IMG/VR virus record: IMGVR_UViG_3300033146_004156
Span: 1-56,059 of that record
DNA length: 56,059 nt
Source of the DNA: a virus
Reading direction: 5' to 3' (one strand)
The notes below the pieces were generated by a model, which worked only from the letters and a program-made list of their open reading frames with translations, did no database searches and was not told the DNA's origin. Position numbers and translations under genes: made by a program. Below, piece after piece: positions 25,497-55,205 of the stretch. Numbering within the stretch: position 1 is the stretch's first letter; each line of letters opens with the position of its first letter.

Positions 25497-25519
25497 AATT
25501 AGGAGGAAACTCCTAATTT
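25496..25519. terminator. Bidirectional hairpin terminator
   Basis: AAATTAGGAG (25496-25505), loop GAAA, CTCCTAATTT (25510-25519): a perfect 10-base stem, starting in the stop of the sheath gene and containing the stop of the convergent endonuclease gene. The right arm ends in ATTT on either strand, so it can serve both genes. Confidence 0.75.
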
Positions 25520-27000
25520 AATACAAATACATAATTTCCACAATCGTGTATTTGTCTATATCCATTTAAAAACATATTTTCTGTTTCTGTTTTCTTTATA
25601 TCAAAGATTTCTAGTTTACTTAATTTATGCTTTTGAAATTTATTTCTTGACCAAAGAATTCTTTCTTTATTAAAATAAAAATAATTTGGTACACTTATAT
25701 TTTTTAGATTAAATCCAAGCATTTTATATAAATGGCCATCACTCCATCTCCGATTGGCATATGAAACAATTCCACCAGTATGTAATAATCTAAAGTTTTT
25801 TAATAATTTAGATGCTCCACCTATAATAGAATGGTTTATTTTATTACAAAACCTAATCATTTCATATTTAATATTTGCATCTTTAATAAATCTGGCTTTA
25901 CTGAAAGTCATCACAGAAACTAATTCGGTATTATAAAATAATCCATAATTTAAACTTGAAGTGCCTTTACCCTGCAAATGATTATTTTCACAGAATATAC
26001 TTGCTTCACTAGATGTTATTTTTTTAAATACTGTTTTCCGCGCATAAATTTTATTTTTATTCTTTTTTAGTTTATTTCTTATTACACTTTTCCACTTATC
26101 TTTATTTTCGTACCATTCATTTTCGAAAATTTGCAATAAATGTATATTATTATTAATACAGAGATTAGTTTTATCATTATGTTTGAATTTATTAAATTTA
26201 TCTATATTACTTGGAAATGTTAAACCTCTTGAATGCCATAGTAAACCGTTATATTCTATTGCAATGTTATAATCTGGTAAAAAAATATCTAGTTCTTTTC
26301 CATTAAGAATTTTTCTATTATTATGTAAAATATTATTTACACCTAACGATTTAATATATTCTATAATTTCTAGTTCTACATTAGAATTTTGTTTAGAGCA
26401 TTTAAGGCAAGTACCTCCACGCATAACATTGGAAATTTGCATATTACTTATATTACCACATTTACATTTAAAATCAAGATATATTTTTCCAGGTATATAT
26501 TTAGATATTAATTTCATATTATTGTTTTTATTTTTCAATACATCTATAAATTCCTTTTCTGTATATGCTCTTATATTGCTTCTTTTATTAAATGTACATG
26601 TTTCACATTCTTTTCCATTATAAACTTTTTTAAGTACTTCTTTAAATTCATTACCGCATTTACATTTAAATAAATATTCTTTATTAATACAAGTGGATTT
26701 TTCTAAAAGCTTAAATCCAGCAGCCTCAATACTTTTTATATATTCTTTTAATTTATTATCACTGTTACTTGTGGAACGCTTTAATATTGCACAGTCGCTC
26801 CGCCCACACGTTTCATTATATCCACCCTTAAAAGATAAGAATTTTTTATTTTTACCACAGTCGCATTTTGGAATTTCTGCTATTTCAAAGTATATATGAT
26901 ATAATTCTTGCGTTGTTATATCTAAATGCCTAGTTTTATTGACCTCTAGTTGATATTCATTTCTTAATAAATTTTCTTGTATATATTCTTTAGTTATCAT
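25513..27000 (-). CDS. Freestanding homing-type endonuclease with zinc ribbons
   Basis: Protein of 495 residues. Residues 45-205 hold three Cys-ribbon units (CDCGKN...CGRSDC; CKCGNEF...CETC; CKCGNIS...CLKC). Then comes a nuclease core of the Vsr/EDxHD type: 'GKELDIFLPDYNIAIEYNGL' followed by LWHS, with D, E and H in the expected places. The last third ('NHLQGKGTSSLNYGLFYN', 'MIRFCNKINHSIIGGASKLL') resembles the C-terminal part of Hef-like phage homing endonucleases. It stands alone with its own TATAAT promoter, next to the sheath gene, a typical place for an intron-less homing gene. It looks intact; target site not evident. Confidence 0.75.
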   Translation of the reverse strand: MITKEYIQENLLRNEYQLEVNKTRHLDITTQELYHIYFEIAEIPKCDCGKNKKFLSFKGGYNETCGRSDCAILKRSTSNSDNKLKEYIKSIEAAGFKLLEKSTCINKEYLFKCKCGNEFKEVLKKVYNGKECETCTFNKRSNIRAYTEKEFIDVLKNKNNNMKLISKYIPGKIYLDFKCKCGNISNMQISNVMRGGTCLKCSKQNSNVELEIIEYIKSLGVNNILHNNRKILNGKELDIFLPDYNIAIEYNGLLWHSRGLTFPSNIDKFNKFKHNDKTNLCINNNIHLLQIFENEWYENKDKWKSVIRNKLKKNKNKIYARKTVFKKITSSEASIFCENNHLQGKGTSSLNYGLFYNTELVSVMTFSKARFIKDANIKYEMIRFCNKINHSIIGGASKLLKNFRLLHTGGIVSYANRRWSDGHLYKMLGFNLKNISVPNYFYFNKERILWSRNKFQKHKLSKLEIFDIKKTETENMFLNGYRQIHDCGNYVFVLN

Positions 27001-43534: not shown

Positions 43535-45382
43535 CTAACCCCAAGTATTAATAGTTGGTGTATACTTCTTGATTTTATCAACAATTTTACCTGTTAGTAT
43601 TGATAAATCTATTTTTTTACCAGCTTCTTTAACTTTAACGTACGCAGAATCTACAACATAGAACCCACCTGTTTCTGAAGCTTTAATCGCTGAATCTTGT
43701 CCCTTTTTATTAAAGGCAAATACGATAGCTCCATCCATATACTTCTTGATTTTAGAACCCATATTAACAATTTTTTTCATTGTTAATGCTGCTCCCTCGT
43801 GAGTATCAATTAAAATATCTTCAGGTACAACACGACTTCTTTCTTGATTTTGAGTTAAAGCAACTTTAACATCATTAACAACCCAAACAATATGGATATT
43901 TTCTTTAGCATAACCAAGTTCTGCAGTGTCCATAATAATATCGTTAAGCTTTTGGATATCATCTAAAGTAACATCAAATATAATATTTGGTTTTCTCTCT
44001 GGATTAGATGCAGCGATTGTATCAAATAATCTTCTTTGTTTCTTATCAGATATACCTAAATCTTTAACAATTTTATGTACTACTGAAACATTTTTAGGAT
44101 TCTTTAAATCAATATCTTTTAAAGATACTCCCATCTGTTTCATAACTTTATCATTTAACATAGGAGATTTCATAGCAAATACTTTAAGAGCATCAACATC
44201 TAAAATCTTCCCTTCAATTCCTAAAAGATTTTGAGTCACAAATCCTTTACCTGAATTATGATTTACTAAAAAATTCTTTAGTATAAATCTTTTATCTTCT
44301 TCTTCTATACTAAAACCATAATAATTATTTTCTGGTAATTCTTTTATTTCAAACCCCATTCTTAATACATTTTTATTCTTTTTATTAATAGGTTGTTTAT
44401 ATTCTAACACAATTGGTAAATCACTAAAATCATTTCCACTAATAGAAATTCTGTGATATTGTCTTATTTCACCATTCCAATTGATATTTTTTACAACACT
44501 TTTTGTTCTATAACCCAATGAACCACATAAAAATTCAATATCTTCTTTTAAACCATCAAATTTTGTTAAAATTTCAAACATTCCGCCAATATTACAACCA
44601 TCGGAATCTATTAAACCGGCAAGTACTTTTTTTCTATTTTCACTTGAAGTAATTAATAATTCTTTTGGGATTCGTTTTTCTGTATTAATATAACAATTAT
44701 CTCTAACATAATTAAGAAATGGGTTAATTTTTGAACCCTTTGTTGTAAGAGAATATGTTTTACAACCTAATTTTGTTGTTTTAATTGGGTTAAATGAATA
44801 ATTATTTATTTCATATTTTTCACTAATATGAGATATTAGTGGAGAATCATTCTCAATTGTAAAATTGGGGGTATTTCTTGTACCGTCTCCAAGCCAAAAT
44901 CCAATTAACCAAGGGTCTATTTCAAAATCATAATTATTTTCAAATTCAATTAATTCCGATTTATATAACTTAAGATATTTTTTAACTGATGGTTTAGTTT
45001 TTAAATATTCCGAATAAGTAAGATTATAAATTTGGCCTTTTTTAAATCCACATTTATTTGTGCTGCAAATAAATGTATGAATATGATTAATATTACAAGT
45101 ATAAGAGTCACCCTTATTTGTTGTAACTTCTAACATTTTTTCTCTACCAGAATGTAATTCTTTAACAGTACGAAGTTTTGAGTCGGGTCCCATTAATTTA
45201 TCATTAATATTTATATCTTGCACTTTTTTATATTCACCATTATACATTAGTATTTCTGTATCTTTAGTATGACACCCGGCTCCACCAGCTAATATAACAA
45301 TATTTCCAAATTTTGGATATGCTTTTTTACCTAGTGTAATTAGTACTTCATTAATAAATTCATTTTTAAAATCAAATTTCAT
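43535..45382 (-). CDS. P-loop kinase/ATPase-like protein interrupted by an intein
   Basis: Frame of 615 residues. After removal of the intein (residues 37-376) the mature protein has 275 residues and begins 'KFGNIVILAGGAG' joined to 'SGKGFVTQNLLG', restoring a Walker A P-loop GGAGSGKG. A probable second motif is 'GKILDVDALKVFAM'. Further parts: 'RKPNIIFDVTLDDIQKLND', 'IHIVWVVNDVKVALTQNQER', and a Lys-rich C-terminus. The zeta-toxin / polynucleotide-kinase-like branch is the nearest guess. The N-terminus 'KFDFKNEFINEV' looks like a capsid-targeting tail. A palindromic late promoter (45406-45417) lies upstream, so it is a late gene, possibly packaged in the head. Confidence 0.75.
   Translation of the reverse strand: MKFDFKNEFINEVLITLGKKAYPKFGNIVILAGGAGCHTKDTEILMYNGEYKKVQDININDKLMGPDSKLRTVKELHSGREKMLEVTTNKGDSYTCNINHIHTFICSTNKCGFKKGQIYNLTYSEYLKTKPSVKKYLKLYKSELIEFENNYDFEIDPWLIGFWLGDGTRNTPNFTIENDSPLISHISEKYEINNYSFNPIKTTKLGCKTYSLTTKGSKINPFLNYVRDNCYINTEKRIPKELLITSSENRKKVLAGLIDSDGCNIGGMFEILTKFDGLKEDIEFLCGSLGYRTKSVVKNINWNGEIRQYHRISISGNDFSDLPIVLEYKQPINKKNKNVLRMGFEIKELPENNYYGFSIEEEDKRFILKNFLVNHNSGKGFVTQNLLGIEGKILDVDALKVFAMKSPMLNDKVMKQMGVSLKDIDLKNPKNVSVVHKIVKDLGISDKKQRRLFDTIAASNPERKPNIIFDVTLDDIQKLNDIIMDTAELGYAKENIHIVWVVNDVKVALTQNQERSRVVPEDILIDTHEGAALTMKKIVNMGSKIKKYMDGAIVFAFNKKGQDSAIKASETGGFYVVDSAYVKVKEAGKKIDLSILTGKIVDKIKKYTPTINTWG
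44255..45274 (-). mobile_element. LAGLIDADG intein in the Walker A motif
   Basis: An in-frame insertion of 340 residues. It begins with Cys (block A: CHTKDTEILMYNG), has the block B T-x-x-x-x-H pattern (YTCNINHIHTF), two LAGLIDADG helices (LIGFWLGDGT and LAGLIDSDG), a C-terminal block 'YYGFSIEEEDKRFILKNFLV', and ends His-Asn followed by Ser. All residues needed for splicing (Cys1, block B His, HN, Ser+1) are present. The site is between GGAG and SGKG of the host P-loop, so the host protein is inactive until splicing. Both endonuclease Asp residues are present, so homing activity is plausible. Confidence 0.95.
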
Positions 45383-52322: not shown

Positions 52323-54218
52323 TTAGCTGTATTGACTCATATTATTTAGTTCTCTTAATGATGTGAATTTTTCATCTTCATCAAATGTATTATTAATTTT
52401 ATCCATCATAGCTTCTCTTGAATTTTCATATTCAGAGTTTCCATCACTGAATCCACCAACATCAAGTAACGAATAATAATCAGCTGTTTCAACACCCTCA
52501 TCGTCTTCAATATCGATTCTTAGGGCTTTAAGAAAAAGGTGGTGGTCGTCCATAACTTTTATATGTGTAAATGGTGCAAGTGAAATTGCCAATGACATAA
52601 CCATATCATCTTTTGAACCATCACTTGCCACATATTTACCATTTTCATTTAGTTCAAAAGTTAATAATTCTTCTATTGTAACTTTATCATTAATAATTAA
52701 TTTACCTTCTTCTATAAAAGCTTTCATTAAACTTAAAATTAATGGACGTGTTTTTTGTGTTGTTCTAAACCCATGCCTTTTACTATACCCTTTATTATTG
52801 GTATCTCTTTCTCTAAACAAATTAGGATATTCATATGTATACCATAGTGTATCAACTATCGATGTACCAATACCATCATTAACTTCAACTGTTATAAATG
52901 CTTCATTATAATAATTACCAAGTTCTGATAAATGCTCGCCCATTATCATGTAATCTACTTGTAAAGCCCCGGTGGCAACTTGTACAAATGGAAATTTTGT
53001 TATATCCATTACTTGAATACCAAAATTATCTATTCCATCACCTGATGGGTCAACACCAATTGCATAATTATGCCCTTGTTTTACTTCTTCATAAATATTA
53101 ATTTTATGAAATATCTCAGGTATATTAAGTTTCTTTGAAGTTGTTAAATTCTTTAATACCTCGCCATCGATTAATGTTGTACTTGAACCTAAAAATAAAT
53201 TTTCTTCTGTGCTTTTAAAGAATTTTTCGCCATATTTTTTAACAGTAATAGCACGATATTCTTCGGGAGTAAGTAATATGCCATCTTTATTATATCTAGG
53301 TACCTCTTTCCAACTATTTTCTACTAAATTATACCCATTGGTCCCGGCTTTCGCACCTGTTACCAAATGTGCCCAAAAATTTAAACCTTTAGCCGTACTA
53401 GTCATTATTACTTGTTTAGTTATTAAAGATGCCATGGTAGGAAATACTGAATCCTGAAAAGCATCCCATTCTTTTTTATTATAATAAGCGACCTCATCTA
53501 AATATAAAAGAGATATACTAAAACCACGAAATGCATCACCGTGAGGGCGAGATGTCATTATACGTGTGCCATTTTCGAACTCAATACTTCTAGTGTTCCA
53601 TGAGTCCATATTTGGAGCCAACCATATAGGTAATTCTACTAATATTTTTTTAATTTTATCAAGAACTTCTGCAGCAGTGCTTTCCCTATTTCCAACTATT
53701 CCAGTATTAAATGGGTCTTTTCTAGACATACTATTCCATAAAATATAGTTTGCGCTCCCCACTGTTTTTCCTGACTGACGCGAAAAACTTACACATAAAT
53801 CTTGCCCCGTTAAAAAAGCATCATCTAATTTTAATTGATAATCTCGGGGTTCACCACGTTGAACACCATTTCTTGTTAGAATAAAAGAATATAATCGTTT
53901 AAAATATCTATAATCATTATATACTTTTTCAATTTCTATCTCGTGTAAAATATTTAAATCTAATTCAGTGCCTATCGAACGCAGTGTACCAATTCCATTA
54001 TAACTTATTCTTTTGTTATATTTATCATGATAATAACCACTTTTTTTCTTAAATGAAAGTAATTTTAACAATCCGTCGTGCTCGGCAAAAGTCCAGTCTT
54101 TGGTATTTTTCACAAATTTAAGAAAAGTAATACTCTCTAATAATTCTGGTAATATTTGTTGTATGGTTTCATCATCCATTTTAGCAATATTATGGAGTAG
54201 TTTTTTAAATTTATTCAT
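52323..54218 (-). CDS. 17: Terminase large subunit gp17
   Basis: Protein of 631 residues starting at 54218 (MNKFKKLL..., AGGATTAT upstream); the longer frame to 54245 runs deeper into the upstream gene. T4-type terminase motifs: Walker A SRQSGKT at about 146-152, Walker B LLYLDEVAY at about 237-245 with the catalytic Glu, motif III MTSTAKG at about 272-278, nuclease residues in AIGVDPSGDG (about 386-395), VEVNDGIG and DGSKDDMVMSLAIS. It is the motor and headful nuclease that pumps DNA into the prohead. Overlaps the homing endonuclease stop by 8 bases. Confidence 0.97.
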   Translation of the reverse strand: MNKFKKLLHNIAKMDDETIQQILPELLESITFLKFVKNTKDWTFAEHDGLLKLLSFKKKSGYYHDKYNKRISYNGIGTLRSIGTELDLNILHEIEIEKVYNDYRYFKRLYSFILTRNGVQRGEPRDYQLKLDDAFLTGQDLCVSFSRQSGKTVGSANYILWNSMSRKDPFNTGIVGNRESTAAEVLDKIKKILVELPIWLAPNMDSWNTRSIEFENGTRIMTSRPHGDAFRGFSISLLYLDEVAYYNKKEWDAFQDSVFPTMASLITKQVIMTSTAKGLNFWAHLVTGAKAGTNGYNLVENSWKEVPRYNKDGILLTPEEYRAITVKKYGEKFFKSTEENLFLGSSTTLIDGEVLKNLTTSKKLNIPEIFHKINIYEEVKQGHNYAIGVDPSGDGIDNFGIQVMDITKFPFVQVATGALQVDYMIMGEHLSELGNYYNEAFITVEVNDGIGTSIVDTLWYTYEYPNLFRERDTNNKGYSKRHGFRTTQKTRPLILSLMKAFIEEGKLIINDKVTIEELLTFELNENGKYVASDGSKDDMVMSLAISLAPFTHIKVMDDHHLFLKALRIDIEDDEGVETADYYSLLDVGGFSDGNSEYENSREAMMDKINNTFDEDEKFTSLRELNNMSQYS

Positions 54219-54885: not shown

Positions 54886-54904
54886 TATATATCCTTATAA
54901 ATTG

Positions 54905-54988
54905 AATTATAAGAGGAGTTTCCAGACCCAAATTAATTATGTAGAAGGAGTCTGGAAAAGCTTCTACATAATTAAGTCTCTTATAATT
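54905..54988. repeat. Three interlocked perfect inverted repeats (possible RNA switch)
   Basis: Order A-B-C-B'-C'-A'. A/A' 11 pairs (54905-54915 / 54978-54988), B/B' 9 pairs (TTTCCAGAC 54919-54927 / GTCTGGAAA 54950-54958), C/C' 15 pairs (54933-54947 / 54961-54975). Linkers are only 2-5 bases. B and C cross each other, so both cannot fully form at once in RNA with these short links: it is a bistable or pseudoknot-like element, enclosed by A. It forms most of the gap 54886-55022, the leader of the GIY-YIG gene. Confidence 0.85.
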
Positions 54989-54996
54989 TATTTATA
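54989..54996 (-). promoter_or_regulatory. Late promoter (TATAAATA) for the homing endonuclease
   Basis: Exact octamer on the minus strand directly abutting the inverted-repeat element. A transcript from here would start inside arm A', so only read-through transcripts would carry the full structure. Confidence 0.65.
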
Positions 54997-55028
54997 TTTT
55001 AGGATTTTAGGATTTTAGGATTTTAGGA
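54997..55028. repeat. Four tandem 8-base repeats (TTTTAGGA)
   Basis: TTTTAGGA occurs four times without mismatch. On the minus strand (TCCTAAAA) the first unit includes the stop codon of the gene at 55023. Confidence 0.9.
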
Positions 55029-55205
55029 TTTAAACCCGTCACCCGCAGTTTTTAACCCATACGATGTATAAACTCTCGACATTTCATGTTGACAAACTTC
55101 GCAGAATTCTTCTCTTGAAGATTCCATCATTGGTTTACTAACAGTAACCTCTTTATTACACTCATCGCATTCACCTTGAACACATTTATATACGTATATT
55201 GCCAT
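55023..55205 (-). CDS. FmdB-like zinc-ribbon protein
   Basis: Protein of 60 residues. It starts with a Tyr-rich strand 'MAIYVYKCVQGECDECNKEV' and carries two Cys pairs, CDEC (residues 13-16) and CEVC (residues 35-38), the layout of small FmdB-type zinc ribbons. It ends 'YGLKTAGDGFKS', a form common to such phage proteins. Possible transcription or DNA-end accessory role; not known. Translation is TAATG-coupled to the 16-codon ORF upstream. Confidence 0.75.
   Translation of the reverse strand: MAIYVYKCVQGECDECNKEVTVSKPMMESSREEFCEVCQHEMSRVYTSYGLKTAGDGFKS

Follow-up and report, generated by a model that had tools for sequence, protein, structure and literature searches.

An interlocked leader RNA upstream of homing endonuclease genes in T4-like phages: a candidate translational switch

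Introduction

Free-standing homing endonucleases need to be expressed in a manner harmless to the phage that carries them, and the timing of their expression is known for few T4 cases. For I-TevI, I-TevII, I-TevIII, segB, and Aeh1 mobE, control by a late promoter combined with a hairpin at the RBS is presented as established in the sections of PMC2988022 devoted to them. In those sections and the corresponding part of PMC3014915, the I-TevI-type arrangement consists of one hairpin, formed on upstream transcripts only. The seg43(25) leader of Aeromonas phage 25 is described in the relevant section of PMC2988022 as having one very stable hairpin of unknown effect just upstream of the endonuclease RBS, which it does not cover; neither an interlock nor an anti-SD strand is reported in that section. 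In T4-type phage mRNA, the T4/T2 gene 32 leader pseudoknot also involves interlocked 5′-end pairing upstream of the RBS, with short coaxial stems bound by gp32, as outlined in part of PMC3014915.

The present analysis concerns a leader element in a 56,059-base virus record encoding a T4-like terminase, the whole of which is referred to here as the window. The element shares with I-TevI-type control its association with homing endonuclease genes, a late promoter abutting the structure, and RNA pairing that would hide the RBS. It differs in that its 5′ strand, A′, lies inside the late transcript, in possessing two mutually exclusive inner helices, and in that the same fold, with unlike sequence, is found before many endonuclease types. 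It is set apart from the seg43(25) leader by the description of the latter, and from the gene 32 pseudoknot by stems too long and linkers too short for the helices to coexist fully.

Results

The element and its setting in the window

Features of the locus are listed in Table 1. The RNA is read from the minus strand in the order promoter TATAAATA, A′-C′-B′-C-B-A, SD, and ATG of the endonuclease gene. A previous sequence-only reading had described three inverted repeats in the plus-strand order A-B-C-B′-C′-A′, with short linkers and a promoter beside A′; upon recomputation the repeats are real, with 11 perfect, 9 Watson-Crick, and 15 perfect pairs, and are arranged as claimed. The B/B′ helix reaches 11 pairs when flanking G-U and extra pairs are included, L1 overlaps the 5′ end of B′, and the C helix stands 0 nt from B′ and 3 nt from B. 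The folding energy of the element corresponds to a z of −4.4, with 0 of 200 shuffles as stable. The further claim that B and C exclude each other holds for the full-length helices: across the 45 copies described below C has 14–21 pairs and the linkers are mostly 0–2 nt (L3 is 0 nt in 23 of 45 and at most 4 nt), too short to bridge the C helix. On geometric grounds, B and C could coexist only with about half of C opened, and with C of this length the coexisting stems and long linkers of a gene 32-type H-type pseudoknot are not found.

Table 1. Features of the leader element and its surroundings in the window
Feature	Position	Strand	Remarks
A′ arm AATTATAAGAG, core AUAAGAG, anti-anti-SD	54978..54988	-	11/11 pairs with A
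C′ arm	54961..54975	-	15 perfect pairs with C; covaries with C in 45 copies
L1, CUCU-like loop segment after C′	54957..54960	-	CUUU(U) here; complementary to A′
B′ arm inside C loop	54948..54958	-	Perfect core 54950-54958
C arm	54933..54947	-	Pairs with C′ 54961-54975
B arm	54919..54929	-	Perfect core 54919-54927
A arm CTCTTATAATT	54905..54915	-	Partner is A′ or SD strand
SD strand UUAUAAGG(A), pairs with A	54891..54898	-	SD core AAGGA 54892-54896
Putative T4-type late promoter -10 element TATAAATA	54989..54996	-	TATTTATA on + strand, next to A′
Expected transcription start (+1)	54983	-	Inferred from T4 rule
Free-standing GIY-YIG-type homing endonuclease gene, 224 aa	54211..54885	-	phrog_314 homing endonuclease, E 5.8e-21
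terL (terminase large subunit)	52323..54218	-	Terminase_6N, E 2.7e-7; phrog_5989

The endonuclease gene is an insertion before terL, which lies directly downstream and whose start overlaps the endonuclease gene end; the upstream neighbour is a small zinc-ribbon-like gene. The endonuclease has no Pfam match at E ≤ 0.001, and no viral relative was found using it alone as the query, whereas terL as the query gave one. Comparison of the window DNA with known phages revealed no similarity. The nearest terL relative (L003, 49–51% identity) has no endonuclease gene upstream of terL and carries an insert in the Walker B region (L003:2180-2585) that looks intein-like (ending ...THHNC) and to which Pfam gave no name. 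Elsewhere in the window, a 615-aa gene (43535-45382, minus strand) contains an intein whose homing endonuclease domain was recognized by Pfam (Hom_end_hint, E 1.1e-22; Hom_end, E 0.0018), set in a Zeta_toxin-like P-loop host protein (E 0.001, below the curated cut-off), and a 495-aa gene without the element (25513-27000, minus strand), for which no Pfam match was found, is weakly like the endonuclease behind another copy (phmmer E 8.6e-11).

T4 late transcripts start about 5 nt after TATAAATA, and the late promoters and +1 positions of the window and the other copies are inferred from this rule. The motif alone shows no enrichment in the window, with 28 sites for 24 expected, but 13 of the 28 are located no more than 60 nt before the start of a gene on the same strand, for which 0.8 are expected. 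Just upstream of the promoter, an 8-base unit (ATTTTAGG on the plus strand) is repeated four times in tandem at positions 54996-55035; the minus strand of these repeats carries UCCU, which could pair with the SD in read-through RNA.

Recurrence in viral contigs

The first further copy was encountered in L087, a distant endonuclease relative (65% identity over 63 aa), in which the arm order is as in the window and the C and B sequences are quite different yet both paired. A pattern consisting of the promoter and the two A arms only is found in 34 stretches of viral contigs. With the window included, this pattern, which ignores C and B, has 35 distinct viral matches, of which 30 contain an interlocked C/B (29 of 34 if the window is left aside); by a loose test, the interlock is present in 2 of 33 matches in cellular (bacterial and archaeal) genomes. 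One of the latter two, L144, is weak, lies on the strand opposite its promoter match, and was taken as chance; the other, L150, is on a MAG contig of 25,249 bases, a length identical to that of the viral L117 contig, and was taken as the same phage. A Sulfurimonas match (L129) does not have this fold. Among the five viral matches without interlock, three look like chance and two, L107 and L120, precede endonuclease-like genes. These two (L107:2211-2277 and L120:8355-8420) represent a second leader type with the same promoter and A arms, followed by GATAGG... and a short, simpler hairpin with no C/B interlock.

The census comprises at least 45 distinct copies on at least 32 viral contigs, with a bias toward copies having the AAGAG/CTCTT arms that its patterns required; the first census pattern also demanded TATAAATA and the second did not. 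Further copies outside these counts are at G009:12918, G002:11572, and L317, with a longer variant in G005. A descriptor of the C/B interlock gave 48 matches in 2.3 million bases, a total covering both strands of the loci collected up to that point, versus 2 in block-shuffled sequence, the 48 including reverse images and a few chance matches. This descriptor replaced a looser one that gave 673 matches versus 247 in a one-strand shuffle. Two control patterns with scrambled arms gave no matches at all and were thus uninformative.

The pattern is present in none of 11 records of known phages, and the regions upstream of endonuclease relatives in four isolates (L305-L308) are without the element. 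At E ≤ 1, neither the window stretch nor seven element-bearing loci had a relevant match in Rfam; a partial tmRNA match (L101:1911-2004, E 8.1e-5, below the gathering score) lies away from the L101 element. A search of the open-access full-text literature found no description of the element. The interlocked leader is apparently an RNA family so far undescribed.

Covariation of the inner helices and conservation of the outer segments

The compensatory changes in relatives by which the sequence-only reading had proposed to check the fold are massive in both inner helices. Among the 45 copies there are 43 distinct C arms and 45 distinct B arms, and B varies in length from 6 to 13 pairs, with 10 in 24 copies. 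Watson-Crick pairing is 94.8% for native C and 96.1% for native B, compared with 37.6% and 39.0%, respectively, when arms are swapped between copies. Native pairing is reached by 0 of 1000 permutations, the native partner is the best in 44 of 45 copies for C and 43 of 45 for B, and all four Watson-Crick pair types occur at most positions of both helices. Because the copies were picked by a descriptor that requires helices, the result obtained by ignoring C and B (30/35 versus 2/33) is the fairer test.

The only conserved segments are A′, CUCU, A, and SD, and almost every pair of C and B is variable; a conserved aptamer core sequence, as in metabolite riboswitches, is absent from the 45 copies. 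CTCT occurs within the first 9 bases of the C loop in 38 of 45 copies, compared with a mean of 3.8 and a maximum of 10 for shuffled loops. The A arm is nearly invariant in sequence; L182 and L317, from the same metagenome judging by contig name, have CAAGAG/CUCUUG, and compensated change in A itself is confined to few copies, perhaps of a single lineage. In 43 of 45 copies, TATAAATA precedes A′ by no more than 30 nt, in 42 it lies 6–9 nt from AAGAG, and in most copies no more than about 2 nt separate the start of the AUAAGAG core from the expected +1.

L117 (3373-3433, minus strand) shares its C arms with L264 and L280 but, compared with these copies, seems to have its C loop in reverse orientation, perhaps by inversion between the C arms; its B′ is a direct rather than an inverted repeat of B, making it a natural B-minus variant. 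A leader peptide (AUGUAG in C′) and a leader-peptide attenuator were considered and rejected as general explanations: 13 of the 45 listed copies have no ATG, GTG, or TTG 4–13 nt after AAGAG, and ORF lengths differ.

Genes downstream of the element

In every copy an ATG lies 26–35 nt after CTCTT. Among 41 downstream proteins of at least 36 aa, matches to the homing or HNH endonuclease families phrog_314, phrog_655, and phrog_12434 number 19, 13, and 10 (overlapping counts), others match phrog_3339, 12131, 10820, and 681, and for a few the only matches are to families with no assigned function. The L103 protein has no family match and reads YVYRITD...YYGS, which is GIY-YIG-like by eye; those of L106:7302 and L093 match only phrog_5104, a family whose name gives no function, and are linked by sequence to copies of the phrog_3339 type. 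In the window and six related contigs, 15 of 17 elements precede genes found by similarity to endonucleases, and the remaining two, at contig ends, precede cut or short reading frames that begin like endonucleases. No element was found before other kinds of gene among the 873 open frames of at least 60 aa in these seven records; the endonuclease set of this comparison included the genes behind elements, and the independent evidence is the family matches. Sequence comparison thus identifies the downstream genes as predicted homing endonuclease-type genes of several unrelated folds.

Twenty of the 35 endonuclease-like genes in the seven records have no element, as judged by the descriptor, and the element is therefore not needed for such genes. 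In several of these, TATAAATA and the ATG are separated by a few bases only. At G002:1260, G002:2659, and G001:9148 (minus strand) the ATG is about 4 nt after TATAAATA, and late RNA would be nearly leaderless; the two G002 genes follow tRNA-gene-like sequences.

Strand A as a predicted anti-SD

All foldings are based on secondary-structure energies without pseudoknots or proteins. In the predicted late transcripts of several copies, A is paired with the SD strand and not with A′. The hairpin from A to the ATG has a mean energy of −7.3 kcal/mol over the 45 copies, whereas dinucleotide shuffles average −1.7 kcal/mol (the mean z is −4.0), and at least three of the five SD core bases are predicted to be paired in 44 of 45 copies. 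The window is among the weaker copies, with −5.4 kcal/mol, z −1.9, and 5 of 100 shuffles as stable. The same records contain 80 further late leaders, for which the mean z is −0.26, versus −3.16 for the element leaders; such a hairpin is thus not a feature of late leaders in general. Comparison of the copies shows strand A to be complementary to two segments, A′ at the RNA 5′ end and the SD strand, and A therefore has two potential partners. Both A pairings are kept in L182 and L317, where the SD strand is GGAUAC or GGAAUAC together with CAAGAG/CUCUUG, and in L119, which has CUCUUAUUA with UAAUAGGAG.

Before the SD is made, the predicted mean probability of A′/A pairing is 0.97 and exceeds 0.5 in 45 of 45 copies. 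Once the leader is complete the mean is only 0.26, with A′/A still winning in 10 of 45, and the mean for A/SD is 0.60, exceeding 0.5 in 31 of 45. For the window copy A′/A changes from 0.67 before the SD to 0.00 after, with A/SD at 0.70; its full leader is predicted to be close to C/B balance (C 0.43, B 0.48). Mean energies of the states are close, at −22.3 kcal/mol for A′A+C, −25.7 for C+A/SD, and −21.1 for B+A/SD, a comparison made without the A′L1+B+A/SD state, the mean of which is invalid through one value (L117). The A′/L1 pairing is weak, with a mean of 3 pairs. Helix B is seldom populated in nested folding of the full leader (mean probability 0.11), so that it is the covariation that argues for a role of B.

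Discussion

As brought out by comparison of the copies, the architecture promoter-A′-C′-L1-B′-C-B-A-SD-ATG, with its putative promoter, is found again and again, while C and B change freely and the changes are compensated. We consider it rather likely that the leader is a portable, cis-acting translational switch of homing endonuclease late mRNAs in a group of T4-like phages. The sequence-only reading had also proposed an RNA switch for a homing endonuclease beside a late promoter, and it was right about the two exclusive inner helices and the association with promoter and gene. It overlooked the additional pairing of A with the SD and the recurrence of the element before endonucleases of many kinds. 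Its switch logic does not stand: late transcripts were held to be unable to form A/A′, whereas A′ lies at about +1 and is thus part of late RNA, in which 6–10 A′/A pairs remain possible.

That logic had been drawn from I-TevI, in which RNA initiated upstream hides the RBS and late RNA lacking the 5′ strand is translated. I-TevI remains the nearest functional relative, since here too an endonuclease gene lies directly downstream, a late promoter adjoins, and an RBS-hiding structure is predicted (44 of 45 copies), but in prediction the structure forms on late transcripts too. The arrangement is an established one for T4-type endonucleases in the sections of PMC2988022 that treat it, and the late promoter is directly at the 5′ strand; A′ is nevertheless at +1 rather than upstream of it. 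For the read-through RNA of the window, folding predicts pairing of the promoter sequence close to the SD (probability 0.85), as it does for a few other copies, and over 41 copies the mean probability of promoter/SD pairing is only 0.16; sequestration by the promoter strand was consequently rejected as a general mechanism, since it applies to a minority of copies only. The predicted SD accessibility is 0.29 in late transcripts, 0.24 in read-through transcripts, and 0.26 with shuffled upstream sequence, as computed for the 41 of 45 copies that were usable (4 are without TATAAATA or flanking sequence), and is thus independent of the start in prediction. In the window copy the SD is predicted to be hidden in both (unpaired 0.04 late, 0.02 read-through), contrary to the view that structure would form only on read-through RNA. 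Timing of the I-TevI type, which needs neither B nor C, is therefore regarded as an unlikely account of the element.

Binding of a phage or host protein to the folded leader, for example via CUCU in the C loop, with B and C regulating the binding, is suggested by CUCU being the sole conserved loop sequence (38 of 45 copies) and by the binding of T4 gp32 to the leader pseudoknot of its own mRNA (described in part of PMC3014915). L1 could be a protein-binding segment instead of a partner of A′, but a copy of A would account for CUCU just as well, and we regard this proposal as distinctly unlikely. It is also quite improbable that the element is mainly a 5′-terminal protective structure, in which A′/A and the interlocked domain slow ribonucleases and translation control is secondary. 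The 5′ stem and the long C hairpin are indeed stable and A′ is at the expected +1 in most copies, but the A/SD complementarity in 44 of 45 copies and the retention of a second, exclusive helix B would be left unexplained. The palindromic arms adjoining the promoter, and the I-TevI autorepression noted in part of PMC2988022, could point to a site acting in DNA, as an endonuclease operator, a homing site, or another palindrome function. Against this, the identity of C arms is 0.363 between copies preceding homologous endonucleases (152 pairs) and 0.377 between copies preceding non-homologous ones (628 pairs), some genes unmatched at E 1e-5 have identical C arms in front of them, and the arms keep a strand-specific order with respect to promoter, SD, and ATG, which speaks for RNA, making a DNA-level function very improbable. 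An endonuclease-specific operator was rejected because the arms do not follow the endonuclease.

Translation of the MS2 maturation gene and of hok mRNA depends on a transient fold that precedes a stable, closed one, and the translational switch favored here may resemble those kinetic leaders in this dependence, although they have another architecture and are not known to contain interlocked, freely covarying helices or to be linked to homing endonucleases. In the ON state of the proposed switch, A′/A pairing would leave the SD free, and in the OFF state A/SD pairing would hide it. A is synthesized before the SD, and the nascent RNA would thus pass through the A′/A state; the full leader would then tend to relax to A/SD, so that each transcript would be open to translation for a short time only. 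The C hairpin would place A′ beside the A side and so favor ON. B, made later, would invade B′ in the C loop and open the outer part of C, whereupon A′ may fall back onto the CUCU copy in L1, freeing A for the SD and leading to OFF. Two pairs of segments look alike, A′ and SD (AUAAGAG / UAUAGGAG) and L1 and A (CUCU / CUCUUAU), and these likenesses would explain why A′, L1, A, and SD are kept in sequence, whereas C and B, having one partner each, drift. Tentatively, and with less than even confidence, the element may be viewed as a self-contained kinetic translation timer based on strand exchange between the two mutually exclusive helices, an accessory RNA of mobile elements with an invariant four-segment code (A′, L1, A, and SD) that has repeatedly been captured by unrelated homing endonuclease genes. 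If it is such a timer, the hypervariable helices would be selected for pairing and perhaps also to differ from other copies in the same genome.

The element provides a handle for finding endonuclease genes in unannotated phage contigs, and the free, compensated drift of its two exclusive helices documents a bistable RNA in nature with unusual clarity. If endonucleases of folds as different as GIY-YIG and HNH share one portable leader, this would mean that such selfish genes exchange their regulation and not only the enzyme.
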